In this document: piece after piece, positions 5,672 to 32,621 of the stretch
How positions within the stretch are numbered: the stretch's first letter is position 1
Layout of the letters: each line of letters begins with the position of its first letter
Assembly (NCBI GenBank): GCA_002722135.1
Contig: PBKJ01000013.1
Location: forward strand, 121,577 to 161,584
Reading direction: 5' to 3'
DNA from: Methanobacteriota archaeon
Lineage (GTDB): Archaea > Thermoplasmatota > Poseidoniia > Poseidoniales > Poseidoniaceae
DNA length: 40,008 bases
Notes under the pieces: generated by a model
What the model was told of the DNA's origin: nothing
Seen by the model: only the letters and a program-made list of their open reading frames with translations
Databases searched by the model: none
Program-made: the position numbers and the translations under genes

Positions 5672-6073
5672 ATGCACCCAGCCGCGGCCGCGACCATGAA
5701 GGCCCGTAACGAAGGCTCAGGCCTCTTTGGCTTCTTGACCGCCCTGGTCACGCTGTATTACACCTCGGTGATGATGGAGAACCTCGAGGTTGCCCTCGGA
5801 GCCTACGTCGGCCCTAGCATGGCGATTATCCTCGTGACCATCTTTGCCTTGTTCTACCAGCAACGTCGCAGCGTCAAGGAATTCGAGCAAGGCGGTAACT
5901 ACACCATGCTTGAACAAACCGTGACCACGCTCACCGACAACGGCGAGCGGGTGGAGATTCCCGTTGAGCAAGGCGAGGGGCGGTTCAACGTCCGCTCGAT
6001 GATGTTCGTGTACCTGATCTACGCAGTCCTCGTTGGCTCCACTGAAATCCTCGGCGTCGGTCTCCTCGGATGA
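5672..6073 (+). CDS. Small membrane protein of unknown function (first gene of flotillin cluster)
   Basis: 133 residues, not recognised. Three hydrophobic stretches are visible: FGFLTALVTLYYTSVMM (~19-36), YVGPSMAIILVTIFALFYQQ (~45-64) and MMFVYLIYAVLVGSTEIL (~110-128). A polar stretch of about 45 residues lies between the second and third. QQRRSV after the second helix is positively charged and would sit in the cytoplasm. The upstream TATA-like element fits the first ATG at 5672; a second ATG at 5696 is possible. It is followed after 9 nt by another small membrane protein, then by NfeD-like and flotillin genes on the same strand, which suggests a role in the same membrane assembly. That link is inferred from position. 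Confidence 0.75.
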   Translation: MHPAAAATMKARNEGSGLFGFLTALVTLYYTSVMMENLEVALGAYVGPSMAIILVTIFALFYQQRRSVKEFEQGGNYTMLEQTVTTLTDNGERVEIPVEQGEGRFNVRSMMFVYLIYAVLVGSTEILGVGLLG

Positions 6074-6082
6074 GGCCATACC

Positions 6083-6337
6083 ATGCCGTCCGACAGCTCC
6101 GCTTGGCAGGCCTTGGCTCGGCAACAAGAAATGGCGGAGTTGGCTCCGCTCTACGCTGTTCTGCGGCGAGGCATTCTGCCGATGGCCTTGGTGGTCATCG
6201 GCATGGCCACGTGGGCCCTTGGAGCCCCAGATTGGCTGATCGGCGTGGCCGTTGGCGGCTCACTTGGACCGCTCTTCGCCTTGGAGCGGTACCTCTTCGT
6301 TCGGTGGGTTCTGAAGCAACGTGAGCGGGAATCTTGA
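6083..6337 (+). CDS. Small two-helix membrane protein of unknown function
   Basis: 84 residues with a polar N-terminus (SSAWQALARQQEM), two membrane helices (ILPMALVVIGMATWALG, ~31-47; LIGVAVGGSLGPLFALE, ~52-68) and a basic end (VLKQRERES), which gives an N-in/C-in hairpin by the positive-inside rule. I do not recognise the family. It lies 9 nt after one membrane-protein gene and 25 nt before the NfeD-like gene, so it is most likely part of one operon with them. The length and tight spacing argue that it is a real gene and not a chance frame. Confidence 0.7.
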   Translation: MPSDSSAWQALARQQEMAELAPLYAVLRRGILPMALVVIGMATWALGAPDWLIGVAVGGSLGPLFALERYLFVRWVLKQRERES

Positions 6338-6362
6338 AGTCTGAGGGAGGGAAAGACCCACC

Positions 6363-6977
6363 ATGGAGATTAGCATTCCGTCCTTCCTTGATTTCCTAGG
6401 ATTGGGCTCCGTCAGCGGCATTGACATCCTCTTTGCCAGCATGGCCTTGATTGGCACAGGCCTCTTTGTGCTCTACTTCCTCCTCCTCATCGTCTTTGGA
6501 TTTGCTGACGGTGTCCTCGAAGGCGCCTTCAACATCGACTTTGACATGGACGCAGGCTTTGCGTTTGAGTTGCTGACCCTGCAAGGCATCCTGTCGTTCA
6601 TCATGATGTTCGGTATTTTCGGCTTGGCCGTTAATCAGGCCAACGACAACACGCTGATGGCCATCGGCGCCGGCACGGTGGCTGGCCTGATCTCCATGTA
6701 CATCATGGGCAAGGTCTACCACCTCTTCCGTGGCCTCGAATCCGAAGGAAACGTCGACCACGCCAATGCCGTGGGTGCCCGTGGCGAGGTGTACATGAAC
6801 ATCCCCGCCAACGGCAGCGGCCAAGTCCAAGTGACGTATCAGAACGCCCTACGCACCATGGCTGCCCGCAGCAAAGACGATGCGCAAGCCATCCCGTCAG
6901 GGACGCTCGTCCGGGTGGTGGACCATCTCGGATCCATGCTCATCGTGGAGCCCCTCGACTTCAGCAGCGAGGAATGA
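6363..6977 (+). CDS. NfeD/YqiJ-like membrane protein, flotillin partner
   Basis: 204 residues. Two to four membrane helices occupy the first half (FASMALIGTGLFVLYFLLLIVFG; GILSFIMMFGIFGLAV; LMAIGAGTVAGLISMYIMG). The C-terminal ~65 residues (from VGARGEVYMNIPANGSGQVQ to VDHLGSMLIVEPL) have the G-x-V pattern of the NfeD/YqiJ OB-fold domain. Proteins of this group are encoded beside SPFH/flotillin genes and are thought to act with them at membrane microdomains; here the flotillin gene follows 60 nt downstream. A purine-rich GGGAGGG precedes ATG 6363 by about 15 nt. Family assignment rests on architecture plus neighbour, not on a search. Confidence 0.78.
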   Translation: MEISIPSFLDFLGLGSVSGIDILFASMALIGTGLFVLYFLLLIVFGFADGVLEGAFNIDFDMDAGFAFELLTLQGILSFIMMFGIFGLAVNQANDNTLMAIGAGTVAGLISMYIMGKVYHLFRGLESEGNVDHANAVGARGEVYMNIPANGSGQVQVTYQNALRTMAARSKDDAQAIPSGTLVRVVDHLGSMLIVEPLDFSSEE

Positions 6978-7001
6978 CGGCCCCATCCATCAGGAGTCAA
7001 G

Positions 7002-7010
7002 GTGATATAG
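7002..7010 (+). promoter_or_regulatory. TATA-like element upstream of flotillin gene
   Basis: GTGATATAG stands out in a GC-rich gap and its centre is about 30 nt upstream of ATG 7038, consistent with a separate promoter giving a leaderless or very short-leader flotillin mRNA. Assigned by position and composition only. Confidence 0.4.
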
Positions 7011-7037
7011 CCCCCCAATGCTCCACAACCGAGCAAC

Positions 7038-8471
7038 ATGACGGACCACACTGCTGATTCCGGTTCCAACGTCGCAGCCGCCCTCGGAACCCTTGGCGTC
7101 TTTCTCCTGATTGCAGCCGTGGCCGGCGTGGTCATCCTCTACGCCTTCCGGTACAAGATTGCCCCGTCCGACAAGATCCTGGTCATCTACGGTTCAGGTC
7201 CTGGCCTCAAGGGCAAGACGGCCGACACCGTTCACGGTGGCGGACGTCTGGTCATCCCGCTCATCCAGCACTACGCCTACCTTGACCTCAAGCCGTTGAC
7301 GATCATCATCGACCTGCGCCACGCCCTTTCGATGCAGAACATCCGCATCAACGTCCCATCGACCTTCACCATCGGTGTCTCCACCGAGCCCCAAATCATG
7401 ACCAACGCTGCCGAGCGTTTGCTTGGTCTGACCCCGCAAGCCATCGAAGACATGGCCAAGGAGATCATCTTCGGTCAGCTCCGTTTGACCGTCGCTTCGC
7501 TGACGATTGAGCAGATCAACCAAGACCGTGAGGCCTTCCTCTCCTTGGTGTCCAAGAACGTCGACGCTGAGCTCCACAAGATCGGCCTGTACCTCATCAA
7601 CGTGAACATCACCGACATCACCGACGAATCGAACTACATCGAGAACATCGGTCGCAAGGCGGCCGCTGAGGCCAACAACAAGGCGCTCATCGACGTGGCC
7701 AACTCGGACCGTGAGGGTGCCATCGGTGTGGCTGCCGCCAACCGTGACCGCCAGATTGAGGTTGCTCGCAACGAAGCGGCGTCCGCCAAGGGTCAGAAGC
7801 AGGCAGAAGCCGACCGCCGTGTGTTTATTCAGCAACAGGAAGCCCAAGCGGTGGAGGGTGAGAACGTCGCCCGCGCCGACATTGCCCGCACCAACGCCGA
7901 CCTCGCTGAGCGTGAGGCAGAAGCCCTCCAGCGTTCCGAAGTCGCCCGCAGGCAAGCTCAGGCTGAAATCGAGCGTGCTCAGTACACCCTGGAGTCCGAG
8001 CGGCTCCGTGCTGAGGAAATCGCACGCGAGGAAGTTGCCAAGGCACAGATCGAGATCGCCGCAGAGGCAGAAGCCGAGCGCCAACGCCGCATCGCCCGTG
8101 GTGAGGCCGACGCAACCTTGGCTCGCTTCCAAGCCGAAGCCGAAGGTGTCCAAGCCGTCCTTGAAGCCAAGGCAGCAGGTTACCGCAACCTCGTGGAGAG
8201 CGCGGGCGGCGACGCCCGTGCCGCCGCGACGCTCCTCATGGTCGAGAAGATGGAAGCCATCGTTGAGAAGCAGGTGGAGGCCATCTCCAACCTCACCATC
8301 GACAAGATCACCGTCTGGGACTCCGGCGGCAACGGCGGCGAGGGTTCGAGCACCTCGAACTTCGTCTCCAGCCTCATCAAGAGCCTGCCACCGGTCCACG
8401 AAGTCGCTGGCATGGCCGGCGTCGAGCTCCCCGATTACCTGGGCAGCATCGAAGACCGCGTCGACGATTGA
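7038..8471 (+). CDS. Flotillin-like SPFH/band-7 domain protein
   Basis: 477 residues. An N-terminal membrane helix (~13-36: ALGTLGVFLLIAAVAGVVIL) is followed by an SPFH domain (~40-230) with features of the flotillin branch: GGGRLVIPLIQHYAYLDL, GVSTEPQIMTNAAERLLG and IEDMAKEIIFGQLR. From ~225 to ~400 there is a long Ala/Glu/Arg-rich coiled coil (repeats such as AEAEAERQRRIARGEADA), then a flotillin-type end (VEKQVEAISNLTIDKITVWD). Such proteins form large cages or microdomain scaffolds on the membrane and usually pair with NfeD proteins, as here. The C-terminal ~45 residues (GNGGEGSSTS onward) are a low-complexity linker plus short tail. Confidence 0.9.
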   Translation: MTDHTADSGSNVAAALGTLGVFLLIAAVAGVVILYAFRYKIAPSDKILVIYGSGPGLKGKTADTVHGGGRLVIPLIQHYAYLDLKPLTIIIDLRHALSMQNIRINVPSTFTIGVSTEPQIMTNAAERLLGLTPQAIEDMAKEIIFGQLRLTVASLTIEQINQDREAFLSLVSKNVDAELHKIGLYLINVNITDITDESNYIENIGRKAAAEANNKALIDVANSDREGAIGVAAANRDRQIEVARNEAASAKGQKQAEADRRVFIQQQEAQAVEGENVARADIARTNADLAEREAEALQRSEVARRQAQAEIERAQYTLESERLRAEEIAREEVAKAQIEIAAEAEAERQRRIARGEADATLARFQAEAEGVQAVLEAKAAGYRNLVESAGGDARAAATLLMVEKMEAIVEKQVEAISNLTIDKITVWDSGGNGGEGSSTSNFVSSLIKSLPPVHEVAGMAGVELPDYLGSIEDRVDD

Positions 8472-8509
8472 GTGGCGCTCAGCGCTCCCCCCTCGAACCG
8501 CAAGGCTGG

Positions 8510-8525
8510 GCCGCTGCCAAGCGGC
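8510..8525 (+). terminator. Hairpin after the flotillin gene
   Basis: GCCGCT (8510-8515) and AGCGGC (8520-8525) form a perfect 6-bp stem with a 4-nt loop about 40 nt after the flotillin stop. No U-run follows, so it may be an mRNA 3' structure and not a terminator. Confidence 0.3.
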
Positions 8526-8544
8526 GCATTGATAGCCCGTCATG

Positions 8545-8559
8545 GAGGGCTAGGCCCTC
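8545..8559 (+). promoter_or_regulatory. Shine-Dalgarno-hiding hairpin before the formate-THF ligase gene
   Basis: GAGGGC (8545-8550), loop TAG, GCCCTC (8554-8559) is a perfect 6-bp stem that ends at the base before ATG 8560. The left arm overlaps the only Shine-Dalgarno-like sequence (GGAGGG), so in the folded state the ribosome site is paired. The sequence shows the pairing; a regulatory role is inference. Confidence 0.45.
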
Positions 8560-10275
8560 ATGCCCTCCGACTTGCAAATCGCCCGTGAAGCGACGCTTGA
8601 GGACATCGCGGCCGTCGCGTGGAAGTTGGCGCTGCCCGCGGACGGGCTCCAACCCTACGGACGCCACATCGCCAAGGTCAGTTGGCCGTGCATTCAGGAG
8701 CACTTGGATCGGCCGCAGGGCAGCCTCGTGCTCGTGACCTCGGTCAACCCTACGCCATTCGGTGAAGGGAAAACGGTGACCACCATTGGCCTGACGCAGG
8801 CCCTGAACCGTATTGGCCGCTCGGCCACCTGCGTCGTTCGGGAACCGTCCATGGGCCCGGTGTTTGGCATCAAGGGGGGAGCGGCAGGAGGTGGACGCTC
8901 TCAGGTGCTCCCGATGGAGCAGATCAACCTGCATTTCACGGGTGACCTGCACGCGGTGACCTCGGCGCACAACCTGCTTTCATCGATGATTGACAACCAC
9001 ATCAAGCACGGCAACGACCGTCGCTTGGACACCACCCGAATCGGCTGGCCGCGCGTGGTGGACCTCAACGACCGCGCCCTGCGTGAGGTCGTGGTTGGGC
9101 TTGGCGGACCAGCCAACGGCAACGTTCGGCAGGACCGGTTCGACATCACCGCTGCGAGCGAAGTGATGGCCATCCTCGTCCTTGCGCGCGACTACGCCGA
9201 CCTGCGGGCGCGCCTCGGTGAGATCATCGTTGGCCCCGATCTTGACGGGAAGCCCGTTCGTGCCGATGACCTGGACGCTGCCGGTGCGATGGCCCTGCTC
9301 CTCAGGGACGCCTTCCTCCCCAATCTTGTACAAACCTTGGAAGGTGATCCTGCCTTCATTCACGGTGGCCCGTTCGCGAACATTGCACACGGCAATTCAT
9401 CGGTCATCGGCGATCGCTTGGCCTTGGCCTGCGCCGACTACGTGGTGACCGAAGCAGGGTTCGGATCCGACATGGGCGCTGAGAAATTCATGCACATCAA
9501 GGCCCCTGTGGGGCAGAAAGCACCGGATTGTGTCGTGATGAACGTCACCGTTCGCTCCATGAAACTCCATGGCGGTGCCTTCGGGGACCGGGCTGGGCGG
9601 CGCCCGAGCAAAGAAGAGCTCGAGGCAGAAAACGTCGAGGCCATGCTTGAGGGCGCGAAGACCAACCTCGACCGCCACATCCGCAACATGTCCGGATTCG
9701 GCATGCCGGTCGTGGTCTCCATCAACCGCTTCGCGAGCGACACCGATGCGGAACTCGATGCCTTGGCCGATGCCGCTCGAGCCAGCGGTGCATACGACGT
9801 GTGTTTGACCGAAGTTCACGCGCGTGGTGGAGAAGGTGGAGCCCTGCTTGCAAAGGCGGTTGTTCGAGCCGTTCAGGACCACGTGGCTGCCGGACGACCG
9901 TTCACGCCGCTCTTCATGCCCGATGCGCCCGTGATGGAGAAGGTGGAAGGCATCGCAAAGCGCCTGTACGGCGCAGAGGCGGTCACCGTGTCTGCGTCTG
10001 CAAAGAAGCAGTTGGACCGTTTCGCGGCCTGGGGCTACGGCCACCTTCCGGTGTGCATGGCCAAGACCCAGTACAGCTTCAGCCACGATGCCGGAGGCCT
10101 CGGGGCTCCGACCGGCTTCACCCTCCCCGTTGCAGAGTTCAGGTTGAACGCGGGGGCTGGCTTCATCGTGGCGATCCTTGGCAACATGATGACCATGCCT
10201 GGCCTACCAAAGCGGCCGGCCGCCGCGGACATGGACATGGACGAACACGGGATGCTCAAGGGCGTATTCGGGTGA
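8560..10275 (+). CDS. fhs: Formate--tetrahydrofolate ligase
   Basis: ATP-dependent ligation of formate to tetrahydrofolate, giving 10-formyl-THF for one-carbon metabolism. 571 residues, family length about 555-560. Landmarks in order: TSVNPTPFGEGKTVTT, the P-loop (~60-75, with Phe and Val where many homologues have Ala and Thr); REPSMGPVFGIKGGAAGGG (~97 on); QINLHFTGDLHAVTSAHNL; RVVDLNDRALR; GPFANIAHGNSSVIGD; TEAGFGSDMGAEKFM; and FGMPVVVSINRF. It is therefore an intact enzyme. ATG 8560 is preceded by GGAGGG, which is locked in a small hairpin. The pelota gene begins 4 nt after its stop, pointing to co-transcription. The enzyme is patchy in archaea and was probably gained from bacteria at some point (inference). 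Confidence 0.93.
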   Translation: MPSDLQIAREATLEDIAAVAWKLALPADGLQPYGRHIAKVSWPCIQEHLDRPQGSLVLVTSVNPTPFGEGKTVTTIGLTQALNRIGRSATCVVREPSMGPVFGIKGGAAGGGRSQVLPMEQINLHFTGDLHAVTSAHNLLSSMIDNHIKHGNDRRLDTTRIGWPRVVDLNDRALREVVVGLGGPANGNVRQDRFDITAASEVMAILVLARDYADLRARLGEIIVGPDLDGKPVRADDLDAAGAMALLLRDAFLPNLVQTLEGDPAFIHGGPFANIAHGNSSVIGDRLALACADYVVTEAGFGSDMGAEKFMHIKAPVGQKAPDCVVMNVTVRSMKLHGGAFGDRAGRRPSKEELEAENVEAMLEGAKTNLDRHIRNMSGFGMPVVVSINRFASDTDAELDALADAARASGAYDVCLTEVHARGGEGGALLAKAVVRAVQDHVAAGRPFTPLFMPDAPVMEKVEGIAKRLYGAEAVTVSASAKKQLDRFAAWGYGHLPVCMAKTQYSFSHDAGGLGAPTGFTLPVAEFRLNAGAGFIVAILGNMMTMPGLPKRPAAADMDMDEHGMLKGVFG

Positions 10276-10279
10276 GGGC

Positions 10280-11335
10280 ATGCGTATCCTGCACCGCGAC
10301 GACATGCGCATGCGCTTGCGGTGTGAATCCGACGATGACCTCTGGACGCTCGCACAATTCGTTCAGCCTGGCCAACGCTTCGGAATGGTGGGTGAGCGCA
10401 GGGACTCCACCACAGGGGCGGTGGAAGGAGGCAGAGCCAAAGCGGCCGAACGCCGCACCATGTGGATCCTGCTCGACGTGATCAGCGTCGAGCATCACAC
10501 CTTCTCCGACGCCCTCCGCGTGCACGGTACCATCGTCGAAGCGGCCTTCGACCAAGGTCAGCACCACACCCACGTCGTCGAAGCCGGCCACGAGGTGGAG
10601 GTGCACACCAACACCGCATTCCGCCCCATCGACGTGCAATTGATCCAAGAAGCAGCCAGCGCAGCACTTCGTCCGAAGGTCGCGCTTGTGGTCGTGGAAC
10701 ATGACGAAGTCATCCTGTTCACGGTCGCCCAACGGGGCCTCAAAGAAGGCATGACGTGGACGATGCGGGGCGGTGGAAAGCGAAACGATGAGCGCACCTC
10801 CTCTGGCGTCAAGGAAGCCTTCCTGACCAACACCGCGAAGGAAATTGCGGCCGCGTTGGTTGGCGATGTCCCCGTGGTCCTTGCAGGTCCTGGGCACGCC
10901 CGCGACCGGCTCGCCGCGGCCTTGCGGGTGTGCGCCCCCGACCTCAGCCTCACCTCTGTGGCCACGTCCATCGGTGGTCGCTCAGCCGCCAACGAAGTCA
11001 TTCGCGAAGGGCTGGCAGGTGCCGTGCTTGCAGACCATGCCGTCTCTCGGGAGACGGGTTTGGTCGAAGAAGCGATGACGCGCATTCAGACGTCGGGAGC
11101 CGTGGCCTACGGCATGGCGCACCTTTCTCGCGCGGTGGACGAGGGAGCCGTAGAGACCTTGGTGGTGCTCGCTGACCTGCTTCGTGGAGAAGACGCCGAC
11201 CGCTGGCAGCAGATGTGCGAGGCCGTCCACGACCTCGGTGGAACCATCGTCCAATGTTCCAGGGACCACGATGCTGGGGCACAATTGGACGGCCTCGGTG
11301 GCGCCGTGGCCCTGACACGCTACCGTGTCGATTGA
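10280..11335 (+). CDS. pelA: Pelota, mRNA surveillance / ribosome rescue factor
   Basis: Archaeal Pelota is an eRF1-like protein that, with aEF1A and ABCE1, dissociates stalled ribosomes. 351 residues, normal for archaea. The three domains are visible: an N-terminal Sm-like domain (MRILHRD, DDLWTLAQFVQPGQRFGMV, with the RR...E turn and ILLDVISVEHH), a central domain (LKPKVALVVV-like: LRPKVALVVVEHDEVILF, then FLTNTAKEIAAALVGDVPVVLAGPG) and a C-terminal eL30-like domain (AVAYGMAHLSRAVDEGAVETLVVLADLLR, GGTIVQCSRDHDAGAQLDGLGG). It lacks the GGQ of eRF1, as Pelota does. It starts 4 nt after fhs. Confidence 0.92.
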   Translation: MRILHRDDMRMRLRCESDDDLWTLAQFVQPGQRFGMVGERRDSTTGAVEGGRAKAAERRTMWILLDVISVEHHTFSDALRVHGTIVEAAFDQGQHHTHVVEAGHEVEVHTNTAFRPIDVQLIQEAASAALRPKVALVVVEHDEVILFTVAQRGLKEGMTWTMRGGGKRNDERTSSGVKEAFLTNTAKEIAAALVGDVPVVLAGPGHARDRLAAALRVCAPDLSLTSVATSIGGRSAANEVIREGLAGAVLADHAVSRETGLVEEAMTRIQTSGAVAYGMAHLSRAVDEGAVETLVVLADLLRGEDADRWQQMCEAVHDLGGTIVQCSRDHDAGAQLDGLGGAVALTRYRVD

Positions 11336-14238: not shown

Positions 14239-14898
14239 TCACAGACCGAGGTGTTCGCGAACACCGCCGAGGTCTTTGCCATGAACAACGGGAACGCCTG
14301 CTTCCAAAAATGCCGCTTTTGAGCTCTCCCGGGTGGGGTTGAAGCCAATAAATCGGCTTCCTTCAACCTGCATGGACAGATCCATCTCCGAATCGCCAAT
14401 GCTCACCACTTTGGTCACATCAAAGCCGTGCATCTCGACCAGGCGGTCGATGATGGCGCCCTTCCCAGTTGCATGAAGGCGGCACACGCCTTCGTCCAGC
14501 AACCAACCCTCCTCGTCGAAGGTGAAACCGTTGGCGATCCAATCGTCAACCTTCAGCATGGCGGCAATGCTCGAAACGAACAAATCCACGCCAGCGGATA
14601 CGATGGCCACGTAGACACCACGTTCCTGGAGGTCTCGAACCAACTCCCGTGCACCAGGCATCAAGCGAGCTCCCGCGTAGGCACGGAAGAGGTCGTCCTG
14701 GTGGATGGGGTCCTGCACGGCTTTCCACAGCGCGATGTCCGATCGCATGAAGGTCAGGTCATCGAACTCTCCTGCGATGAAGCGTTGGAGGTTCGCGTTG
14801 TTGTCCGTCCCAAAATGGTCGTGGAGCGTACGCCACGAGGAAATGGCGTCCACAAGAACACCGTCGCAATCGAAGACCACACAGTCGAGTCCGTCCAT
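14239..14898 (-). CDS. HAD-superfamily phosphatase, phosphoserine-phosphatase-like
   Basis: 219 residues from ATG 14898; a GTG at 14919 is also open. HAD motif I is CVVFDCDGVLVD (nucleophile and acid/base Asp), motif II is VAIVSAG (Ser), a Lys in the GKGAIIDRL stretch serves as motif III, and motif IV is VVSIGDSEMD. The alpha-helical cap between motifs I and II and the LMPGARELVRDLQERG segment resemble SerB/PSP-type enzymes, so phosphoserine phosphatase is the leading candidate. Other small-molecule HAD phosphatases share this layout and the substrate is not proven. It is tail-to-tail with the PolD small subunit. Confidence 0.8.
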   Translation of the reverse strand: MDGLDCVVFDCDGVLVDAISSWRTLHDHFGTDNNANLQRFIAGEFDDLTFMRSDIALWKAVQDPIHQDDLFRAYAGARLMPGARELVRDLQERGVYVAIVSAGVDLFVSSIAAMLKVDDWIANGFTFDEEGWLLDEGVCRLHATGKGAIIDRLVEMHGFDVTKVVSIGDSEMDLSMQVEGSRFIGFNPTRESSKAAFLEAGVPVVHGKDLGGVREHLGL

Positions 14899-14947
14899 GC
14901 TGGAAGCAGGAGCACTCACACCATCAAGGCTCGTCCCGGTTCAGGGC

Positions 14948-15056: not shown

Positions 15057-18000
15057 TCACGCAGCGATGTCGTAGGACAGTCCACTCCAGGTGCGGAGCA
15101 GAGCGCCCTGACCGACCTCAGGTGCGTAGGACAGCTGGATGGTCACGTCCGTGAGGGGCGTGCCGTCAGCAAGGTGGGTGCGCACGAAGATCGTGTCACC
15201 GACGAAGAAGGTCGAAACCTTGTCGTCGCCTTCGGACCGAACAGAGTCGGAGAAGGTCACCAGACTGTCGCTGTTGTAGGGGGAGAACCCGTACACGCCG
15301 TCGGAGTTGGCCATCTTGACCTCGTAGACACCGTCGATTTCAGCGGCGAAGATCTTGATCTCCACGGCTTGCGTCGCCAGTTCCGTCTCGGACTGCTGCA
15401 CTTCGATCTTCCAGTGGCCGGTCTCGGCGTCGAACGCGTTGACGTCATCAATCTGGAAGGTGATGCGGGGCACACCCTTCACGTCGGTCTCGGCCAGGCT
15501 GGAGGCCCAGACGTAGATCACACCGGAGAGCACCACGGTGATCGCCACCATCAGGATGGTCGCGATAACCGGGCTCACAGCAGCCTCGTCTTCGACGAAG
15601 CGTGGGGAGGATTCCTCCTCCTCCTCTTCGTCTTCTTCGCGGCGACCCGCCAAGGCGAGGAGGCCGACAACCATGCCCGCGAGGGCGACGGCGACGATGC
15701 TCGGAGCGAACGATGGGACACCGGAAGCACCGATGGTGCGCACAACGTCAGGCAGTTCTTGGTCGGTGATCTCGAATGATCCGCGGCCGTAGTCCGCCTG
15801 GTCACAGACGTCGATGTTACCCGTGAGGGCGTTGTACATCACGTTGTTACACCAGTCCTTGTCTTCAAGCACAGGGCGACGGATGCTGTCGGTTCCGTCC
15901 TCGGAGCCGTAGAATCCGGGCTCAGCCCAGTAGTCCAGGCCGTTCGGGAGGGTCACCTTGCCGTGGCTGGCGGGCTCGTCAGCGATGAAGCGGTCCTCGA
16001 CCGACTTCGTCATGTCACAGGTCTCGTCGACACAGGTCTTGACGTCCATCTCTGCCCACACGGTCGTGGTGACCGCCTTCACGTAGACTTCGGAGTCCAC
16101 CGTCACAGACTGGCCGTAGGCGGGCGCGTCGATGTAGATTGCGTCGCGCTCCGTCTCAGCGTGGCCGTCACTCTGGAAGGTGATCATCAGCATGCTGTCG
16201 TGGTTGTAGGGGCCTTCGTCGCCGCCAGCGGTCACGGTCACGGTCACAGGCACCCAGGTGCCGTCCATGACGTTGGACACGCCGTTGAAGTCGAAGCCGC
16301 TGTTGGCTTCGAAGTAGTAGTCGGGCACCTGCTCAGCCACGTTCTGCACGATGATCTTCACGTCGCGCTTCAGCGAGGTCTGCTGGATGTAGCCGTTGTC
16401 GTTGAGGTCGTACGCGAAGCCCGTTGGGGCAGCGGCGCTGTCCGTGAGGTAGAGTTCCATCTCACAGAAGCCCTTGCCGGCCGGGTTGACCTGGTGCACA
16501 CCGCCGTTGTAGAGGTAGTCGATCTGGTTGATCGGGGCGTTGGTGGTGGCGTCCTTCACGAGGTCCAACACGAGCTCGTCACCGTTGAAGGCGAACGAGA
16601 AGTAGTTCGTGTAGGCACAGTACGCGCGGCCGTTGTCGTCGAGCTTGGGCAGCAGCGACCAGGTGAGGTCGCTGAGGTCGTGGTCGACGTCGTTCTTGAG
16701 CGCGGACAGGTCGAAGGTCAGCTCGTCGGCTTCTTCGGTGTCCTCAAGCACGCGGATGGTCCACTCGCCGTAGATGAGCGAGGAGTCGTTCGAGGCCCAG
16801 TTGATCGTGTCACCGGTCTGGAGGTTCCAGTCGTCGATGGTCGGCGCGTCGTTGACGGGCACCACGCTGATGGTGATGACCTCGTCAACCGCGTTCTGGT
16901 TCTCGGCACCGTCGTCGGACAGGCTCAGCGTGATGTCGCACGAGCCACCGGCTTCGAAGTCCATGCCGGACTTGCCGGTCACGGTCAGCACCGTGTCGTC
17001 AACCATGCCGACGCTGAACAGCGGGCAGGTCTCGTCCACGGTCACGCCCCAGGTGTACACCTGACGGGACGGGTCGTTCTCGTTCGGCTGGTCCTTGATG
17101 AGGTTCAGCGCGCTGCTGCCGGTGTTGGCAACGTCCGAGAGGATCACGGACACGCTCTGACCGCCAACAAGGCTGTCTTCGGGGATGTAGTTCACGTGAG
17201 CCGCGTCACCGAAGAGCATCACGGTGTCCACACAGTCGCCGTTGGTGTCGCGCTGGCAGATTTCCGGAGCGTCGTTGACGTTCTCGACGATGAAGTAGAT
17301 CGAGCGGTCGTCCTCAAGGCCGTTGCTGTCGGTCACGGTGAAGTTGAACTGCACCATACCGAACTGCTCGGCGGTTGGGGTGATGCTGAGGTCGTGACCC
17401 GTGAGGGACCAGCTGACCAGACCCTCGGCGGGCATCGGCGTGTTGCCGTAGACCACCACGGTCTCGCCTTCATCGACAGCCCACGTGAGGTCGCCGGCGG
17501 CGTCCTGCACGTCAGAGGCGTACGAGGTTAGGGAGACGGTGTATGCACCGGAGTCTTCGTTCACGGTGATGTTCGCAAGGTCACTGCCGATCGACGGGCA
17601 GGCGCGCTCGATGTCCATCGAGAGCGCGACGTTGTCGGACATGTTGACCGCATTCTCGGTCGCCCAGTCAACGGCACAGTCGTCGTTCGTGTGCTTGATC
17701 ATCACGTCGTACTCCTTCGCGGCCGATGGCACGTTGCTGCCGAGGAAGGTGCGGTAGGTGAGCACCTCGTCATCGAGCACGCCGTCCTGCAGGTTGTTCG
17801 CACCGAGCACCACGGTGTAGTACTCGCTGAAGTCCTGGAGGGTCGTCGTGCTGTCCATGGCTTGGTCGGGGTAGACCTCGCTCACGTCGGCGCTGCTGTC
17901 GCTCTGCACGATGGCAATCATGCGCACGGAGCTCGGCATGCCACCGAGGCGGCTGAAGGGCACCATGATCTCGGCGAAGTCGCCAGAGAAGTCGGCGTCG

Positions 18001-21000
18001 ACGTTGTCAGCGGAGAGCGACGTCACGCCCCAGCCGAGGAAGCCGTAGGCGTAGAGGTCGTTGCTCGCGTCGGACTCGGCCCAGTAGACGAAGTCAGCCT
18101 CGAAGGGCAGGTCGTGGGCACCGGAGGCACCGTAGTCGTAGCCCGTGTCTGAGCCGCCACCGGTGACGTCGAAGTACACCAGGAGGTCCGAGGTGGACAG
18201 GTCGAGGCCGTCGATGGCCACGTACAGGTCGTCGTTCTCCGTGTAGGTCACGTAGAAGTTCTCGGTCAACTCACCGGGCATCGCATCGTCGGACGGGTTC
18301 AGCTCGGAGCCGATCCAGTCCGCGTTGTCGCCGTCAACGGCCATCGCGTCGGACTGGAAGTCCGGCGAGATGTAGGCCGCACGGAGGCCGTCGGTGCTCA
18401 CGATGGAGACGCCGACCTCAGAGGTAACGGGCGCGCTGAGGTGCGAAGCAGCGATGTCGAGGAGGTTGGCCTCGTCGATCATCGTACCGGTCGGCACGAC
18501 GAGCAGGGACGGGGTCAGGTCCTGGCCGATGGAGGTCACCATTGCGCCCTGGTCCAGCTCGATCTGCGTCGTGACCGCGGAGGTCCACGTCAGGTTCTCG
18601 ATCTTGCCGACCGAGTCCGAGACGAAGATGGCGGTTTCTGCGTTCACGTCACCCATGTTGTAACGGAAGTCCGTGTTGTAGATCTCCATGCCCGCAGCGC
18701 CTTCGAGGTCCACGCAGTACATCAGAGCCTCACCGCTGTCTTCGAGCAAGAGGCCGACACCAGAGGTGCCGCCGTCGAGCTCAGCGTAGTTGATCAACAA
18801 CTGCGTGTCGTAGGCCCAGACACCTTCGCTGACGCCAGCAATGGTGGCGTTGTCGATGATGCTGAGGGTGCCTGCGTCGGACTCCACACCGGTGTCAAAG
18901 CCGGAGATGGTGGTGCCGCTGAGGGTCACGGAGTCGCCGTTGGTGGAGACAACACCAGAGGTGCTGGCTTGGTCACCACCGATCAGCTCGGAGTTCTCGT
19001 CGAAGAAGTCGCATCCGTCGGCCACGATGGCGTCGGTCGGCATGGCGACGAAGTTGTCGGCCATGTTGATCGCCGTACCGGTGCAGTCCTCAACGAGGAT
19101 ACCGGTCGTCGCAATCACCGTGGAGCCTGGGCTCATGGAAACGTCGTTGCCGCTGATGACGGGTCCGGTCACACCGCTCTGCGCCGACGTGTAGTAGGCG
19201 TCCAGGGTGATACCGCCGTCGCCCCAGCTGTCGGAGACGTCGATGGTGTAGGTTCCAGCGTCCGTGTAGGTGGTCAGTGGCTTGTAGCCCGTGTTGGAGC
19301 TGAACGTGTAGGTGCTCCACGAGTCCTTCGTGCCGTCGGGCTTGGTGATCTCCAGGGAGATTTCGTAGCCCCAGCTGTCGGTTTCGATGTCGATCACGAG
19401 GGTCGATCCGTTGCCAACGAAGTTGAAGGTGCAGCTGTCGCTGTAGCCGTAGTTGCCAGAAATCTCACACAGGTCCGTGGTGGTGCCAACAGGTTGCGTG
19501 GCCTCGGACATCAGGATGCCCGTGGTGGCGTCGACGATCACGTTGTCCATGATGTCACCGTATCCGCCGTTGGCGTGAATGCCAGCGTAGGAGTTACCGG
19601 GTCCATACATGTCGTTGTCGCTCACTTCGAAGCCCTTGACGTCGTTCAGGTAAATGCCGTCCTCGGTGAATCCGCGGATGGTGTTGCCAGAGATGGTCAG
19701 GTCCTCAATGGAGCTGTCCCATGCCGAGATGGCAGAGTCAAGACCGCCCGTGTTGTTCATCACGTTGTCAACGACCATGGCACCCTCGATGCTCGCGCTT
19801 GGGTAGAAGCGCACGTCAGAGATTTCGCCACCGTCTTCGAAGGTGTTGCCACGAATGCTCACGTTGTCCGCTCCAATCTCGTTGGAGTTGTGGCTCCAGT
19901 AGTACGGCGAGCGCTGCATCTCGATGCCGACCGCACAATCGTTGAACGTGTTGTCCTCGATGAGGTTGCCGTCACCGCCGTAGAGGCGCATGCACATGTC
20001 CTGGGACTGAATGGCGTTGTTCAACGGAGACCAGCCCTTGTAGTGGGAAATGGTCGAGTTTCGCACGTTGAAGAAGTTCAACTCGTAGTTGGAGTAGTAC
20101 CCGTAGCCGATCGCACCAACGATGGACGCAATGCCGCTGAACTCGGTGTTGTTCGCGTCCAGGTTCATCGAGTAGTACAGGTATCCAAAGTTGATGCCCG
20201 CCAACTCACCGTCGTCGTTCAGGGACATGCCCTGAATCGTCGAGTCGTGCAAGTAGACGTTGACCTCGCCGTTGTACCGTGGGTACACGCGCGAGAGGTC
20301 GTTCGTGGACCAGGAACCGGTCCAGATCATCGTCGTGCCGTTCCACTCGTAGGTGTCACCGTCGAGGTACCAGTTGGGTGCGTCAATCATGACCGCCTTG
20401 CCGGTGAAGTCACCGCCATCGACAGAGCCGTAGTAGTAACCGTGCTCTTCGAGGCCGTTGTTGAACACGCGGCTCGAACCCGTCGAGGACCAGCCGTTCG
20501 CACAGCGGTCGACGTAGTTGTAGCTCGCGGAACTGAACGCGTAGCACACGCGGTGGTCGAACTCGTCAATGAGTTCGACGGTCTCGGCGTTGCCGCTGTT
20601 GTCGCTCAGACTGACGGCTTCCTCGACGTAACGGAAGTCAGCGTTGCTGTCGCTTGCGGTGTTCCAGTAGTAGTCCACCTTGGCCACAGAGGACACGCTG
20701 TATCCGTTCAGGTCGATGTTGTGCAGACCGGCCGCGTCGACGTTGATCGACGTGAAGGTCAGGTCCTCAGCAACACCCGTGGTGTCCGTCGTGCCGGACG
20801 AGGCCGTGGCACCTTCCGCATTGCGGAGGACAACGGCGACATCGGACACACCAACCGCACCGTTGCCGTCGCTCTGGTCGGCGGTCATGGTCACGTCGAG
20901 TTGACGCATGCGGTTGAATTCACCAGATCCGGTGACGTCCACACTCGTGCTGTCCACGGTTCCTTCGACGAAGTCGACCACGGACGAACCGCTGATCTTG

Positions 21001-24000
21001 AAGTCGTTGGAGGTGCTGCCCATCGTCGAATCGACGAAGGTGAAGCCACCGCTTCCTGCAAGGTCGAAACCGACGTTGTTGCCGCTGAAGTCAACGGAAT
21101 CGTAGCTCAGATCCTTGGTGGTGCTCGAGCCGAACTTCATGGCTGCACCGGCGCTGTTGGACACGGTTCCGGAGAAGTCACCGCCGAAGTCCTTGACGTA
21201 GTACATGCCGGCCACGGTCTGGGAATCCAGGTCCATGTTCTCGAGGTCCATGCTTCCGGCAGCGCCGTTCGCCACCAAGACGCCGTAGTCGCCACCGTTC
21301 ACGGTGACGCCATCGGCGCTGGCCATGGTCGAACCGTCGACCATGATACCGGCGTCGTTCGGACTGTTGACCTCAACGTTGTCGAGGTGACCGGCGGCGA
21401 AGTCGCCACCGATTTCCACACCGACGTCGGCGCCGTTGATGGTGCCGTCCTTGAACAGAGGCGTACCGGACTCGCGCTTGTAGTCACCGAGGTCCGCGGG
21501 GTCGTTGCCCGAACGGGCCACGAACTCGTAGCGGTCCTGGTAGTTGTTCGCACGGTTGTGCAGGACGTCGATGTACATCGTCGCAGAGGTGAGGTTGCTG
21601 GCGGAGATGTCCACGATCGGGAAGGTCACGCGAGCACCTTGGCCGCTGCTCATGTAGTACGAGTAGGCGTAGTCCACACAGACGTTGTAGTTGTTCGTGC
21701 CGACGAGGCCCTCGGGCGGAACCATCACGCCGCTCCATCCGGCCCAGCTGTAGGTGCCGAAGCCCCAGTAGTGGTACGGGTAGTACGCGTAGGATCCGCT
21801 GGGGGTCACACCATCGATGTTCTCCCAGTTGAAGCCGAACGCTGCGGGCCTGTTGTAGTAGTTGGGGTACGAACCGGATTGTCCGGTGAAGTACCAGTAG
21901 ACACCAGAGGTGCCCCAGCCGCCGTAGAAGGTGTTGCCAACACGGTTGGGTCCGTAGTCAACGCCGTAGTAGTTGCAGTCCCACTGTGGGACACCACCCG
22001 CGCCACCTTGGTAGGTGCCAACATCGCCAACACCCTCGTTGGGGTCGCTCGAGCTGTACGGATAGTATCCGGTGTCACCGGCGCTGATGTTCCAGGTGTT
22101 GCCGGCGTTGTCGGTCAACTCCATGCGGTAGCGGTCGGTGATGAAGTAGTACTTGCTCGTCCAGTAGTTGTAGTACGGGTGAGCGTTGCCACCGGCGTAG
22201 ATCGAGTTGGCGCCCACCTGGAGGTAGTCGCTGTTCCCGATGAAGGCCGAGAGGTCGATGTCGTAGGTCTGCCAACCCCTGTTCACGCCAGCGAGCGACG
22301 GGGAACGGTAGATGGTGGGGAGGCTCATGCCACCCTCCATGTCAACACCGACGGTGTTGTCGGTTGAGGTGAAGCCGTCGATCTGAGGCGCAGCGTTCTT
22401 CGACATGATGCCCACGGCACCGTTCTTCACCACGATGTTGTCGATCGACGCAGCGGATCCTTCGACCCAAAGCGCCGTACCGGTGTTCGCGGTGTTGATG
22501 ATGGTGGAGTCGCTGATGCTGACGCTGCCGCGGTCGATCTTGATCGTGGCCATGTCATCGTCGGAGGCTTGTGCGCCGTAGACTTCAGCAGACTCGGAGA
22601 GCACCAAGGCACCGTCGGAGCCAATGTAGAGCGCCGACATCGTGGTCGAGTCTTGGTGGAGGTCCTTCAGGACACCACCGGCAACCGAGAGCGTACCGTC
22701 AGCGACGTCCAGACGGACGCCGTACGAGGAGCTCTGGGCCTTGATGGTCCCCTTGCCACCCGTGTCGGACGAGACGTTCACGACCAGCGAACCGCCGTTG
22801 CTGATGGTCAGCACCGGGCTGCTCGTCGCAGACGCGTCAACGGTCATCACGGAACCCATCATGACGAGGGTGCAGCCGTCGATGTCCAGGTCTGCGGACA
22901 GCGTCATTGGGAAGCTGTCGAAGAGGTAGACGCCTGGGCTGGATTCAGCGCCTTGGAAGGTCTGGTTGTTCGCCATCCATGCGCAGTCCATGTTGGGCTG
23001 GTCAAAGTTGATCGGAGCGGGTTGCAGGAGCAACTCGATCTGGTCGCCGAAGCCAAAGCCACCGGTGGGGTACCACGCAGAGGTCACTTCGGTCTCGTTC
23101 TGGCCGGCAGCACCCCATCCGAAGATGTTGTGATCGCCGTAGGCGTTACCGTCGGAGTCACCGGAGATGACCCACGCTTCAGCCATGCCCGTGGTGTCGG
23201 TCTTGGCAACACCAACCTCGAGGAGGGGGGTGGCTGGGCTGGACGTGGTGTCCATCACGGTGGTGCGAACGCTGTGGCCCGACTTGTACACCTTGGTGAC
23301 GACGCTGTTGATCAGGGCCTCACGGTAAAGGGACACCTGCGCGAGCCCACCGTACCAGACGGTCGCGGAGGACGAAACGTCCACCGGACAGCTGGAGGTG
23401 TCACCGCTGGCGTCAGCACAGTCAGCAAAGCCCGTGCCGTCGTCGTAGCTGACGTCGATGAGCACGATGTCGCTGTTCGACGAGGCCTTGGCGAGGTAGT
23501 TGCTGCTGCCGTCAATGTCGCTGGAGGTCACTTCAACCGAAGCCAGGGTAATCTCGGAGTTGCGGCCGTAGACGGCATCCACGGAGGAGTCGTCGTGGTC
23601 GATGGTCGAGCCCTGCTCCATCACGATGGTGTTGGTGGCCGAGGTCGAGAAGCTGTACAGACGGCTGACGTCTGCGTTCTCGAGGATGAGGCTCCAGGCA
23701 CCGCCGTTGATGGTCAAGTCACCGATGTCCAGGTTCTTCCAGGTCTCGGTTTCCGTGTGCGTCGTGGTGCCGGAAATCGACACGTCGCCCGCACTGATCT
23801 CCTCGAAGACGCCGAAGTGGATGCGCTGCATCGTGATGTCGCCGGACTCGACGTTCATCATGACCGCGTCATCGCCCATGGGGCCCACGGTGGAGGAACC
23901 CCAGCCGTTGGGGGTGATCCACAGGTCAGCGCTGCCGAAGTCGACGTCGTCCATGTACACGCTGGAGACGGCGTTGAAACCGCTGTTGGCGTAGTCGGGC

Positions 24001-27000
24001 ACGCTGACGTTGTAGAGGTAAACGTCGGCGTTGGTCCCGTGCATGGCATCGATCGCCACACCGGTCTGGCTGGCGGAGTTGCTGACGCTCACGTTGGAAA
24101 CGGTCACGTCCTGCAAATCGACGTCAATGAAGTTCACGTAGGAGTTCGTGACGGTGACGTTCTCGACGAAGAGGCTACCCGCGGTAGAACCTGGGTAGTT
24201 GACGATCGCGCCACCCCAGGACTGTCCGTTGGTGTTACAGTTCTTCAGGGAACCCTCACGCAGAATGGCGACGGTGTCCTCAGCGAAGTTGAAACACGCA
24301 TCGTCCGCGCCGTCAACGGCGAAGTTCGTCATCTCGACGACCGTGCCTTGGCCCGAGCCGTGCTCGAAGGCCGCAGCGACGTTCGTGAAGGTCACGTCGT
24401 TCATGGTGAAGTTACCCACGTTCGCGTTGGTGCTGGGGGAGCTGCCGTGGCGGCTGCCCGCGGCAATCGCAGCGTCACTGGTGTTGCGGAAGTCGACGTG
24501 AGAGAACTCGTGTCGGTCATCGGTACCGGTGGTGCACGCGGCGGTGAACGCCAGGCCCTTCCAGTCGGCGCCAGCCTGGCCCTCGAAGGTGACCGGGTTG
24601 GCTTCGTTGCCGTTGATCTTCATCTCGTCGCACGTGCCGTCGAAGGAGATACCCTTCCCGTTGGCCACCTGGACCACAACGCCGGGCTGAATCGTCAGGT
24701 CGGCGGAAACGGACAGGTAGTCGTTGCTGGGGTTGATGCGGATCGGGCTGTCGTCGATGTCCCACGTGGTGTCCGTGGTGATGTCGGCGTCAATGTCCGT
24801 ACCCTTGCCGTTGTAGGGCATGGTGCGGTAGCGGACGCTGCAGTCGATCGCCGTGTTGTCGTAGCAGTAGTAGGAGGTGTAGTAGCCCCACCATGGCGCA
24901 ATCGTGCCGGGGCGCGACGCCGAGTTGCCCGAGTAGGGCATGGATGGGAAGTTGCTGCTCCACGTGGAGACACCGCGCTCGAGGCTCGTGGCTCCGTTGT
25001 CGATGAAGTACATGTAGCCTTGACGGCCCAAGCGGATGCGGTCGTTCGAGTCGGTGCCCTCGTAGAGGGTGCCGAAGTACTCGAAGTCGAAGTCATCGGG
25101 CATGTCGATGTTCGCGTTGCAGCTGGACTTGTAGGTGTTCCAGTACCAGCTGTAGGCGCAGTAGTAGCCGTACGGCGTACCGCTGCTGCTGCCGCTGATC
25201 GCCGTGTCGTAGTTCTTGATCTCGGTCAGGCCTGGCGAGAAGCTCTCGTGGCCGTTGCTCGTCGAGGAGGTGTGCATGCGGTAGTTGGTGGTGAACGGGT
25301 TGGATCCGTAGAGCCATCCGTTGCCCTTCTGCAGGGTCTCACCCTTCGCACGGGTCTGGTCTTGATACCCCGTCACGGAGTAATCGACGTAGACCTGGCA
25401 GCCGGTGTCGTACTTGAACTCGAACTCGTTGGTCACGTCGTAGAAGACAACCTGGTAGGTGCAGAGGTACGAGTTGGTGTACCCCATGTCGTGCCATTCG
25501 ACGATGAACATCTTGTTCGGGTCACCGACTTCGAACGTGGAAGCGGTGGTCTGAACGGAGTTCGGCGTGGTCACGTCGGTGGAGACGTCCTCAGCCGTGA
25601 TGTAGTACTCGATGTAGTCAGAGGTGTTCAGGTTGGTGATGTCAGCCGACCAGTCGCAGGTCGCCAAGACACACTGCGTGGTGGTCTTGCCGACGGGGGT
25701 CATGATCTGGGACATCGTGGAACCGTTGTTCACGCTGTAGTAGAGGGTCGGACCCGTACCAGCCGTTGTGCTGACGTTCAGGCCAGCGGGCGGGGAACCG
25801 CCGTCGGCGATGGTCGCGGTCACCGTGCGCGAGCGGGCGTAGGAGTCCGCGAGCGAAGTGTGGGTGATCGTCGGCGCGTAGGTGTCGGGCTCGGGAGCGA
25901 TCTTCATCACGTCGTAGGTGACGGCGGCGCCGGCACCGGTGCGGGCGTAGTAGCCCGCGCCGAGCGCGAATCCGTTCCACTTGTAGTTCGCGTTGTAGAC
26001 GTAGTAGTAACCGGAGGAACAGCTTGGGCTGCCGGAGGAGGAACGCAGGAAGTGCGTCCAGCCGTTGGTACCCGTGCACACGACGTTCTGGCCGGTGCTG
26101 GAGTACGTGGCGTTCCACGAGTAGCCCGCGAAGTCGCCGGTGATGTCACCGGGGACCACGTAGCGGTGTGCAGCGGAGTAGCCGTAGGTCGAAACCTGGG
26201 AAGCGGTGCTGCCACCAGACAGCGGCTCTTCGATGCTGGTCTCGTCACCGATACCGACCATGGCGAACTCGTCGCCGTCCCAGAGGAACACGAGGTTCAT
26301 GCCTGGGCCGTCGTCAGCGGCGATGCTGAGGAAACCACCGTTGTCGTCGTCGAGGTACACCTTACCGGGGCTGGATCCGCCGGTGTTGTAGGACGAGGTC
26401 GCGGGGTAGGTGGAGGTCTGCCACTGCACGATCCAGTTGTTGTAGAAGTAGTTGGAGCTGGCCGAAGCGGTGTAGAAACAGCGGCTGCTGCCCGTACCAC
26501 AGTCAGAGGTGTCGAACTCGAAGTAGTACTCGTCGCTCTGGTCGAAGTAGCTCATCTGGCGGTCGAAGAACTTGGTCGGGCTGAACAAGTTCGTCGCGCT
26601 GACCTCGGTGGTCAGCTGGACCATCTTCTTCGCGTCACCGGCGTTGTTGATGTCGTCAACAAAGAACCAGTAGGGCGTCGGCGTGGTCTGAGCGCCGGTC
26701 AGCGCGGGCGTGTACCCCTCGTTGGGGTCAGCGGCGCCGGTGCTGTCGACGTTCAGGTCCTGATACCACCAGTAGTAGGTCACGTAGTCACCCGCGGTGA
26801 TGTCACCGGTCTGGGCCTTGAACTGGCACTCGGGGCTGGAGGCGCTGCACGTGCCGATCGTCGTCGCGGCAACAGAGGTGTAGCTGCCGTTGTTGATGGC
26901 GTAGTACAGGGTAGGCTCGTTTCCGCTCGTGGTGTCGATACCGGAGGTGTCGGACAGGCCGAGGAAGAACGTGCGCTCGCCCTCGATGTACGAGGTGATG

Positions 27001-28781: not shown

Positions 28782-28789
28782 TCACCCCA
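28782..28789 (-). promoter_or_regulatory. Shine-Dalgarno of the giant surface gene
   Basis: TGGGGTGA on the minus strand touches the first ATG (28781) but is 6 nt from the second (28775), and TGA is an in-frame stop. Spacing favours translation from ATG 28775, giving a protein two residues shorter (MLGMTNKKK...). Confidence 0.45.
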
Positions 28790-28799
28790 TACGGACTGT

Positions 28800-28810
28800 A
28801 TGCATTGCAT
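28800..28810. promoter_or_regulatory. 11-bp palindrome at the likely transcription start of the giant gene
   Basis: ATGCA-T-TGCAT lies about 25 nt downstream of the TATA-like element at 28826-28834, where transcription should begin. Its position would suit a repressor operator. No protein partner is suggested by the sequence. Confidence 0.25.
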
Positions 28811-28825
28811 CTGAGGTTCTGTATC

Positions 28826-32400: not shown

Positions 32401-32621
32401 TCAAAGGTGGTCGATTCACCGACGAGCAACTCGTCACGGCAGCCTGCCGCCGTACAAGTGGTCTCGGACGGCTGGGTGATGCCGAGGATGTCGACGTCTG
32501 CGCCCGATCGAGCGCTGGTCTGGTCGACGGTGTCTTCGGTGTCAAGTTCGTTGGTTGGAATTCCCGCGAGCAGGCTAGCGAGCAGCAGCGTCACGAGAAG
32601 CATGGTGGTCATGTTTCGCAT
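29415..32621 (-). CDS. Secreted, C-terminally anchored surface protein with CARDB/FN3-like domains
   Basis: 1068 residues. Signal peptide (MRNMTTMLLVTLLLASLLAG, 1-20). Then a CARDB/APHP-like Ig fold (~40-195: VGESTTFEVVMKNIGTGDVEDMSY, ending VDSDQDTDPANDEEEIYVVV, the typical 'vDs.n.v.E.nE.NN' type of ending), followed by further related beta domains with paired cysteines (CTAAGC; CDEAASC). A possible PKD/cadherin-like domain carries DCLTYTWAVEVGG, and an FN3-like domain lies at ~904-1010 (FTVVWTSVGDDSDVANWRICYG). A membrane helix (~1034-1053: LPAIGGVVVAAIVVGAIIVTR) precedes a Gly run and acidic end DDKDWDY. It is expected to project from the cell surface. It has its own strong TATA box and Shine-Dalgarno. 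Function is not recognised; such folds usually mediate adhesion or assembly. Confidence 0.85.
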   Translation of the reverse strand: MRNMTTMLLVTLLLASLLAGIPTNELDTEDTVDQTSARSGADVDILGITQPSETTCTAAGCRDELLVGESTTFEVVMKNIGTGDVEDMSYSLDIYLTDSTKTRGLQALDSSGQPLSWTNDVAVCDEAASCDETSFAANTIYTGGAATLTSGGADITWSPSVGEYLVVISVDSDQDTDPANDEEEIYVVVRDYTDIEVDLCWTDGSGVCEEGDRAVGTGTESRQFLLTVTADGSQDFNPREVNVSVELDGFDAASGGGFDLGVDGEEWLVVAGNAQTVEVYRNTTTDTGTDASRSVLAFQTAWTMTGTVTPGDGGYSIDARVVDHTMYGQDPACSESWIDDPAAEPPVELTSDNWCEYLETNDDYSRTDSDDIYGFSALFHDIRLQTLSVAQGYSADGSGEPTSVIQDGMDLDLRVGTTLLHATVGHFGSDVSKMVDWNVVFTVTSPDGTEDTYNADECPTGLAPAYTHKFLGTYNGQGTPQEADIFGSACVMLNNENALTVGEYNFEADLNFLGVWDTTAERLDTAITDEKASNNRKVMNLDVVNNQPSVLSMTMFNTGDLVVSQEAPLEFDVLAFDVDCVAGDCLTYTWAVEVGGVDNDLGMCGGVGAVGAQCTFQILPEYMPAPRVKVTVTDDNGASTSEYMDLTIWNDVTAESTTADSGITVAYALQYSSTTPYTITATDASAGVTGMELPGYSGQYDSVAVIDFAPDAQLGSLAASGVLSQSMTFTVPKSLLNGEGSIWFNQGSMYQLIDNTAEDSTVDPTMSVFTWDLPANEDTLSAGKFVLFGGALDLAEAPTVGITAFSAAAGKGGTLIVNWGIDASETMSLGDIFLLEICDVAGDADCMNSFVEAFESDVKTYTRPGTFTTHGTVYTISVKVCTAERLCNDQQVGLGNVTADSEVDGDGAMSITSITAPANGDSFTVVWTSVGDDSDVANWRICYGTDKANIRTSGDKCTTVGLTQNTVEIAQPTFTGTETYHFVGVAVDDLGNSKLANEGDASAQYRRDADFTNTDDGNGTVGEDVSGESELPGWTLPAIGGVVVAAIVVGAIIVTRGGGGGDDKDWDY

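Follow-up and report, generated by a model that had tools for sequence, protein, structure and literature searches.

How does a giant, membrane-anchored surface protein come to end in a type IV pilin, and does the gene that encodes it furnish one product or two? The question is raised by a locus of the Poseidoniales, an uncultured group that outnumbers all other planktonic archaea in the surface ocean. The locus lies in a window of 40,008 nucleotides, the whole stretch of DNA analyzed here. A sequence-only reading of this window had described one uninterrupted frame containing an anchor helix, an Arg/Glu loop, and then a pilin segment, and both the description and its coordinates were correct. 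The frame extends from 15057 to 28781 on the minus strand and encodes 4574 amino acids; it starts with ATG, contains no internal stops, and terminates at a stop codon at 15057–15059, with TM1 beginning at 15722. Hydropathy analysis revealed exactly three strong membrane segments in the protein: the N-terminal signal, amino acids 4361–4379 (TM1 anchor), and amino acids 4405–4424 (pilin helix). The sequence GRREEDEEEEEE starts at residue 4379 and is followed by AVSPV from residue 4401. The features of the locus are as follows.

15057–28781, minus strand: giant surface protein with C-terminal pilin, 4574 amino acids (ORF and orthologues)
28641–28781, minus strand: predicted N-terminal signal peptide region, MTNKKK plus hydrophobic residues 17–35 (hydropathy)
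19602–19697, minus strand: parallel β-helix repeat of the ectodomain, amino acids 3029–3060 (TIGR03804, 19.2 bits, slightly under the cut-off of 19.45)
17259–17441, minus strand: tandem-95/cadherin-like repeat of the ectodomain, amino acids 3781–3841 (NF012211, under the cut-off)
15723–16319, minus strand: final ectodomain (stalk) region preceding TM1, amino acids ~4155–4353 (alignment)
15648–15722, minus strand: TM1 anchor helix, amino acids 4354–4378, with conserved VPSFAP before and RR after (hydropathy, alignment)
15582–15647, minus strand: acidic loop, amino acids 4379–4400, predicted to be cytoplasmic (hydropathy, alignment)
15576–15581, minus strand: predicted prepilin-peptidase site, A4401|V4402 (residue tally)
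15492–15578, minus strand: pilin helix VSPVIATILMVAITVVLSGVIYVWASSLA, amino acids 4402–4430 (PF07790, TIGR02537, alignment)
15060–15473, minus strand: pilin head, β-sandwich, amino acids 4437–4574 (AF2 model, Foldseek against archaellins)
14239–14919, minus strand: HAD hydrolase immediately downstream of the giant, a conserved synteny marker (flank comparison)
29415–32621, minus strand: 1068-amino acid single-anchor surface protein immediately upstream, kept in both families (flank comparison)

Two profile models identify the pilin segment and, together with hydropathy, bear out the order of parts within the single frame. Pilin_N (PF07790) matches amino acids 4401–4447 with an E-value of 3.7e-8 and 34.5 bits (cut-off 25.2), and the NCBIfam model of archaellin/pilin N termini, TIGR02537, matches amino acids 4401–4429 with 32 bits (cut-off 20). 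The PDB entry 8fj5, a "Pilin_N domain-containing protein", aligns with amino acids 4396–4449 (E 1.2e-3). It is by its repeat types, parallel β-helix and cadherin-like, that the ectodomain may be regarded as an adhesin. The plus strand opposite the giant contains long frames at 18441–22367 (1308 amino acids) and 22569–28814 (2081 amino acids); rather than being genes, these apparently shadow the giant's coding sequence, which is high in GC.

The arrangement could reflect two genes that were wrongly joined, the pilin being a separate protein translated from an internal start or the junction an assembly or frameshift error. Indeed, the codon for V4402 happens to be GTG in the giant. However, the fusion recurs in related Poseidoniales. 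Searching 194 genomes of the order with a profile of TM1, loop, and pilin yielded full-length matches (E<1e-40) in 108, comprising 88 from family 1 and 20 from family 2, and at least 55 of these frames are 4.5–5.5 thousand residues long. The fusion is present in every one of the 11 family-1 genera and in four genera of family 2. The C-terminal 241 amino acids of the giant have a match in 115 of 116 family genomes; the strong matches (43–98% identity) sit in long frames in which no stop separates the anchor and pilin parts, which argues against a chance resemblance. A scan of named genomes recovered the same frame in Candidatus Poseidoniaceae/Poseidonia MAGs from many independent projects, and genome G011, a single 2.06-Mb contig, carries a 4513-amino acid copy. 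Identity among copies of the frame spans 40–98%. A stop and new start between the two parts in relatives, or a frameshift, which the sequence-only reading had named as evidence against a fusion, was not found in about 108 genomes. Moreover, no conserved start lies near the junction: V4402 is encoded by GTG in only 21 of 33 sequences, M4370 is not conserved, and a pilin started at V4402 would be without a leader. Recurrence in genomes and the absence of a conserved start codon led us to reject assembly error, frameshift, and a separate internal start; this explanation is largely refuted, and we assign it a very small probability.

The distribution of the fusion is restricted. A scan of 243 genomes of the phylum revealed it in Poseidoniales only; among the matches listed, those from the remaining orders, including the sister group within the class, were all short separate pilins. 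The downstream HAD neighbor is present in essentially all checked loci with the downstream flank covered, and the upstream single-anchor neighbor was found in loci of both families with the upstream flank covered. The giant therefore looks like one orthologous locus, which on these comparisons seems to date back to the ancestor shared by all Poseidoniales or to an early point in their diversification. The giant is confined to genera that also have separate pilins, and its N-terminal 581 amino acids are found only in fusion-carrying genera. Neither pilin nor giant was found in the family-2 genera g12, g13, g14, g16, g18, g20, and g21, and tblastn at the HAD locus of ten fusion-less genomes, mostly from these seven genera, detected no trace of the giant or its upstream neighbor. 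All giants observed include the pilin; one apparent exception, G184, was rejected because its contig ends inside TM1. Genus g4 has versions of 2.5 thousand residues with a different N terminus and the same C-terminal block. A second, longer giant branch (4.7–5.5 thousand amino acids) occurs in G052, G058, G085, G107, and G187; its N terminus is very divergent and its C-terminal hairpin-pilin block is the same. Some genomes seem to contain two giant copies.

The sequence-only reading also placed the ectodomain outside the cell and the loop between the two helices in the cytoplasm, a topology that is supported by a group of paralogues. In L092, L093, L094, and L096, the last stalk domain of the giant is joined straight to the pilin head, and TM1, the loop, and the pilin helix are missing. 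Beyond the head, these proteins continue with stretches rich in Asp, a conventional anchor at the C terminus, or both. Alignment of two paralogues with three giants locates the join point between LPxVVxxI and VPRxTF. The direct join indicates that stalk and head are both extracellular, with the loop on the cytoplasmic side. The predicted membrane hairpin of TM1, loop, and pilin helix is thus set between two partner surface domains; since these lie side by side in the paralogues, they probably stay docked if the loop is cut. The same paralogues employ the head as an ordinary surface domain, which favors an explanation in which the pilin segment of the giant is a domesticated relic, providing no more than an additional membrane helix and a head domain and unconnected to pili.

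TM1 itself invites another interpretation. The strongly conserved VPSFAP motif, the helix, and the following RR have the layout (motif, helix, Arg) of an archaeosortase-type sorting signal, and VPSFAP agrees with a VPXXXP pattern of such signals. The ectodomain would then be cut and attached to lipid independently of the pilin. However, no NCBIfam sorting-signal model matches the giant, and exosortase/archaeosortase (PF09721) is absent from the genome, which is 92% complete. With neither enzyme nor model match, we rejected an archaeosortase signal at TM1 as highly improbable.

Conservation across the hairpin points to selection on the pilin helix. Among 35 sequences less than 90% identical to one another, the pilin helix is the best conserved part (mean 0.96), ahead of TM1 (0.74), the loop (0.64), the head (0.59), and the final stretch of the stalk (0.49). 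Not one residue changes from A4401 to V4421 in 33 diverse family-1 homologues, and mean identity at third codon positions in the same comparison is only 46%. Family 2 retains the helix, with M4411 replaced by Leu and small changes from S4419 onward. Complete invariance despite unconstrained synonymous sites is difficult to reconcile with a relic unconnected to pili, as is the occurrence of the giant in pilin-bearing genera only.

Genomes with the fusion also encode a separate pilin whose helix is almost identical, and VSPVIATILMVAITVVL is common to the fused form and free pilins. The two forms can be told apart in family 1 by S-G-V-I/V in fused pilins and A-G-V-L at the corresponding place in free ones; they therefore constitute distinct lineages. 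Gene conversion between them as the source of helix identity was not supported (permutation p 0.085), third-position identity being 0.53 within genomes and 0.49 across genomes; the fused/free pair of the source genome has a high value of 0.83. Profile comparison of the fused head with free pilin heads revealed no significant homology.

The region from TM1 to the C terminus was modeled with AF2 from 33 sequences; pLDDT averages 74 overall and is 85–94 over most of the head. The model consists of a long helix and a β-sandwich, with TM1 and the loop at low confidence. Its best PDB matches in Foldseek are the archaellins 5z1l, 8rh5, and 9eq7 (E about 1e-4) and the archaeal filament 8rey. Target-normalized TM-scores are only 0.31–0.42, probably in part because the angle between helix and head is unfixed. 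Weaker fold matches include FlaG (5tuh, E 1.5e-2). FlaF and FlaG are pilin-like stators that dock at the filament base. The FlaG match lends some weight to an explanation in which the whole two-helix hairpin remains uncut and its pilin part, helix plus head, docks at the filament base or platform, tethering the giant to the filament. The invariant helix is compatible with the pilin-pilin packing that such docking would involve, and the paralogues indicate that stalk and head belong together.

The residues ahead of the helix bear on whether the loop is cut. Archaeal prepilin processing is reported to require G, A, or S at position −1 and a charge at −2, the latter being called critical (PMC4371748). 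Position −1 is Ala in 82 of 82 fused homologues and −3 is acidic in 81 of 82, and −2 is very variable. Invariant Ala and an acidic −3 beside a drifting −2 are more readily understood as a protease site than as part of a simple anchor, so that a relic unconnected to pili becomes improbable; the pattern is also hard to explain without a protease if the hairpin stays intact, and the site segment matches that of free pilins. On the other hand, the giant has Ala at −2, which departs from the charged-(−2) rule. Only 6 of 62 fused proteins of family 1 are charged at this position (56 of 62 are uncharged), compared with 37 of 39 free pilins, a difference that favors an uncut hairpin and may reflect reduced cutting of fused proteins in family 1. 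Family 2 displays the reverse: −2 is charged in 17 of 20 fused proteins and 3 of 10 free pilins, and 7 of the 10 free pilins have Gln there yet look like main pilins. The order therefore seems to tolerate an uncharged −2, judging from residue counts across Poseidoniales, and the argument that a missing −2 charge means no cut is weakened. The predicted site is preceded by 4401 residues instead of a short N-terminal leader, and we know of no precedent for a leader that contains a membrane helix. Considering both sides, we regard the uncut, docked hairpin as possible, although rather unlikely.

The source genome contains a candidate for the cognate enzyme. A FlaK-like prepilin peptidase is encoded on the same contig as the giant (C13:75462–76412; L146:9463–10413, minus strand). 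Searches with PF01478 (Pfam A24) found a peptidase in only 8 genomes; with a divergent 334-amino acid member as query, relatives were detected in 134 of 194 genomes, including all fusion-bearing genera. Both catalytic Asp residues are invariant in the alignment (D..RRVPN and GGAD), and the peptidase profile matches FlaK (3S0X) with an E-value of 1.7e-11. Among genomes listed, none of g12, g13, g16, g18, and g20 has the peptidase; in g14 and g21 it is present and the fusion is absent. The sequence-only reading had proposed cleavage by prepilin peptidase, and site conservation and the peptidase search now indicate selection on the predicted processing site in genomes possessing a gene for a FlaK-like enzyme. 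Poseidoniales prepilin peptidases are too divergent for Pfam A24, which fails to detect almost any of them; their annotation would be fixed by a profile built from the Poseidoniales family. The genome also has an archaellum-like locus (L156, judged by ORFs and an ATPase match) and a TadC-TadC-ATPase locus ~5 kb from the free pilin L003. Elsewhere in the genome, another ATPase/membrane-protein cluster (L157; G000:C19, about 6000–11100) looks like a further type IV filament or Tad-like system, and two adjoining divergent pilin-like genes of 724 and 350 amino acids (L140:4603–7823; G000:C11; DUF7289 and weak Pilin_N) are possibly minor pilins of another system.

Retention of the fusion across most of the Poseidoniales suggests a single gene with two roles: its product would act at the cell surface as an anchor or adhesin, and would also contribute either a subunit of a pilus or a point where a pilus attaches. 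We lean slightly toward a dual-product surface gene, which would yield an anchored ectodomain and a pilin freed for a filament, possibly docked to the stalk. According to this model, the giant ectodomain would be exported and retained by TM1; the loop would remain in the cytoplasm, and the pilin helix would re-enter the membrane, placing the head outside. A FlaK-like prepilin peptidase would then cleave after Ala4401, leaving the ectodomain in the membrane through TM1 and releasing a mature 173-amino acid pilin that could be drawn into a type IV filament alongside free pilins; the two products might arise in the 1:1 ratio proposed by the sequence-only reading. Cleavage of the loop with release of the pilin has, on present sequence comparisons, roughly an even chance of occurring. 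In favor of two products, we count conservation of the fusion, the invariant helix, the site pattern, the peptidase, the archaellum-like and Tad loci, the archaellin-like head model, the hairpin-less paralogues, and the phyletic coupling of giant and pilin. Against it, we count the uncharged −2, the unprecedented helix-bearing leader, and the lack of a clear relationship between fused and free heads. Stalk and head would probably stay docked after cleavage, and the pilin could thereby connect the giant with the filament. Taken furthest, each cut in the loop would install a non-covalent joint, with a pilus subunit held by the stalk of a 4,400-residue protein. Such a joint is doubtful; if true, a stalk-held pilin would be a way of tying pili to an anchored adhesin for which we found no earlier description.

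Comparison with known systems reveals partial likenesses. Archaeal PilA-type adhesion pilins (Pilin_N, PF07790; for example, Haloferax PilA1–6) share with the giant a helix of the type VSPVI..ILMVAITV, Ala at −1, acidic residues ahead of the site, and a β-sandwich head; however, they are short separate prepilins with a short N-terminal leader, whereas the giant has 4401 residues and a membrane anchor before the site and an uncharged −2. Archaellins, which provide the best structure matches, and FlaF/FlaG share the helix and Ig-like sandwich fold, but are separate short proteins of the fla operon. Modular pilins such as PilB and PilC of Streptococcus sanguinis likewise fuse a pilin module to a surface or adhesive module; there the pilin is N-terminal, the extra module lies behind it, and processing leaves a single chain (PMC8179133). 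The order is reversed in the giant, and a cut would split the modules. The most extreme multidomain modular pilin named has 860 amino acids (PMC8179133). A conventional modular pilin exists in the same family as the giant's host (L098; G022:C22, minus-strand frame of at least 651 amino acids): its pilin helix is near the N terminus, with over 600 further residues behind it, so that its parts are arranged in reverse compared with the giant. PilY1-type tip adhesins and the archaeal DUF2341 large proteins of T4P loci are likewise large and associated with type IV filaments, but have no pilin module in the portions of the archaeal type IV census considered here, which present large adhesins and pilins as separate genes (PMC4858521). 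No Pfam match to a PilY1 propeller or DUF2341 was obtained in the giant.

Particle attachment by Poseidoniales has been ascribed to an archaellum operon serving adhesion, which is reported for every genus of Poseidoniaceae and for roughly half of those in Thalassarchaeaceae (PMC6461757), much the same pattern as the distribution of the fusion. By coupling a pilin to a giant surface protein, the conserved gene provides a concrete, testable attachment mechanism for these archaea. It also implies that prepilin-type sites may sit deep within a membrane protein, where searches for N-terminal leaders only would miss them. We found no report in the open-access literature of a giant protein that ends in a pilin preceded by a membrane anchor. 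Compared with the separate pilins, N-terminal modular pilins, and separate adhesins described above, the giant-pilin fusion is a new, conserved form of type IV pilin architecture.
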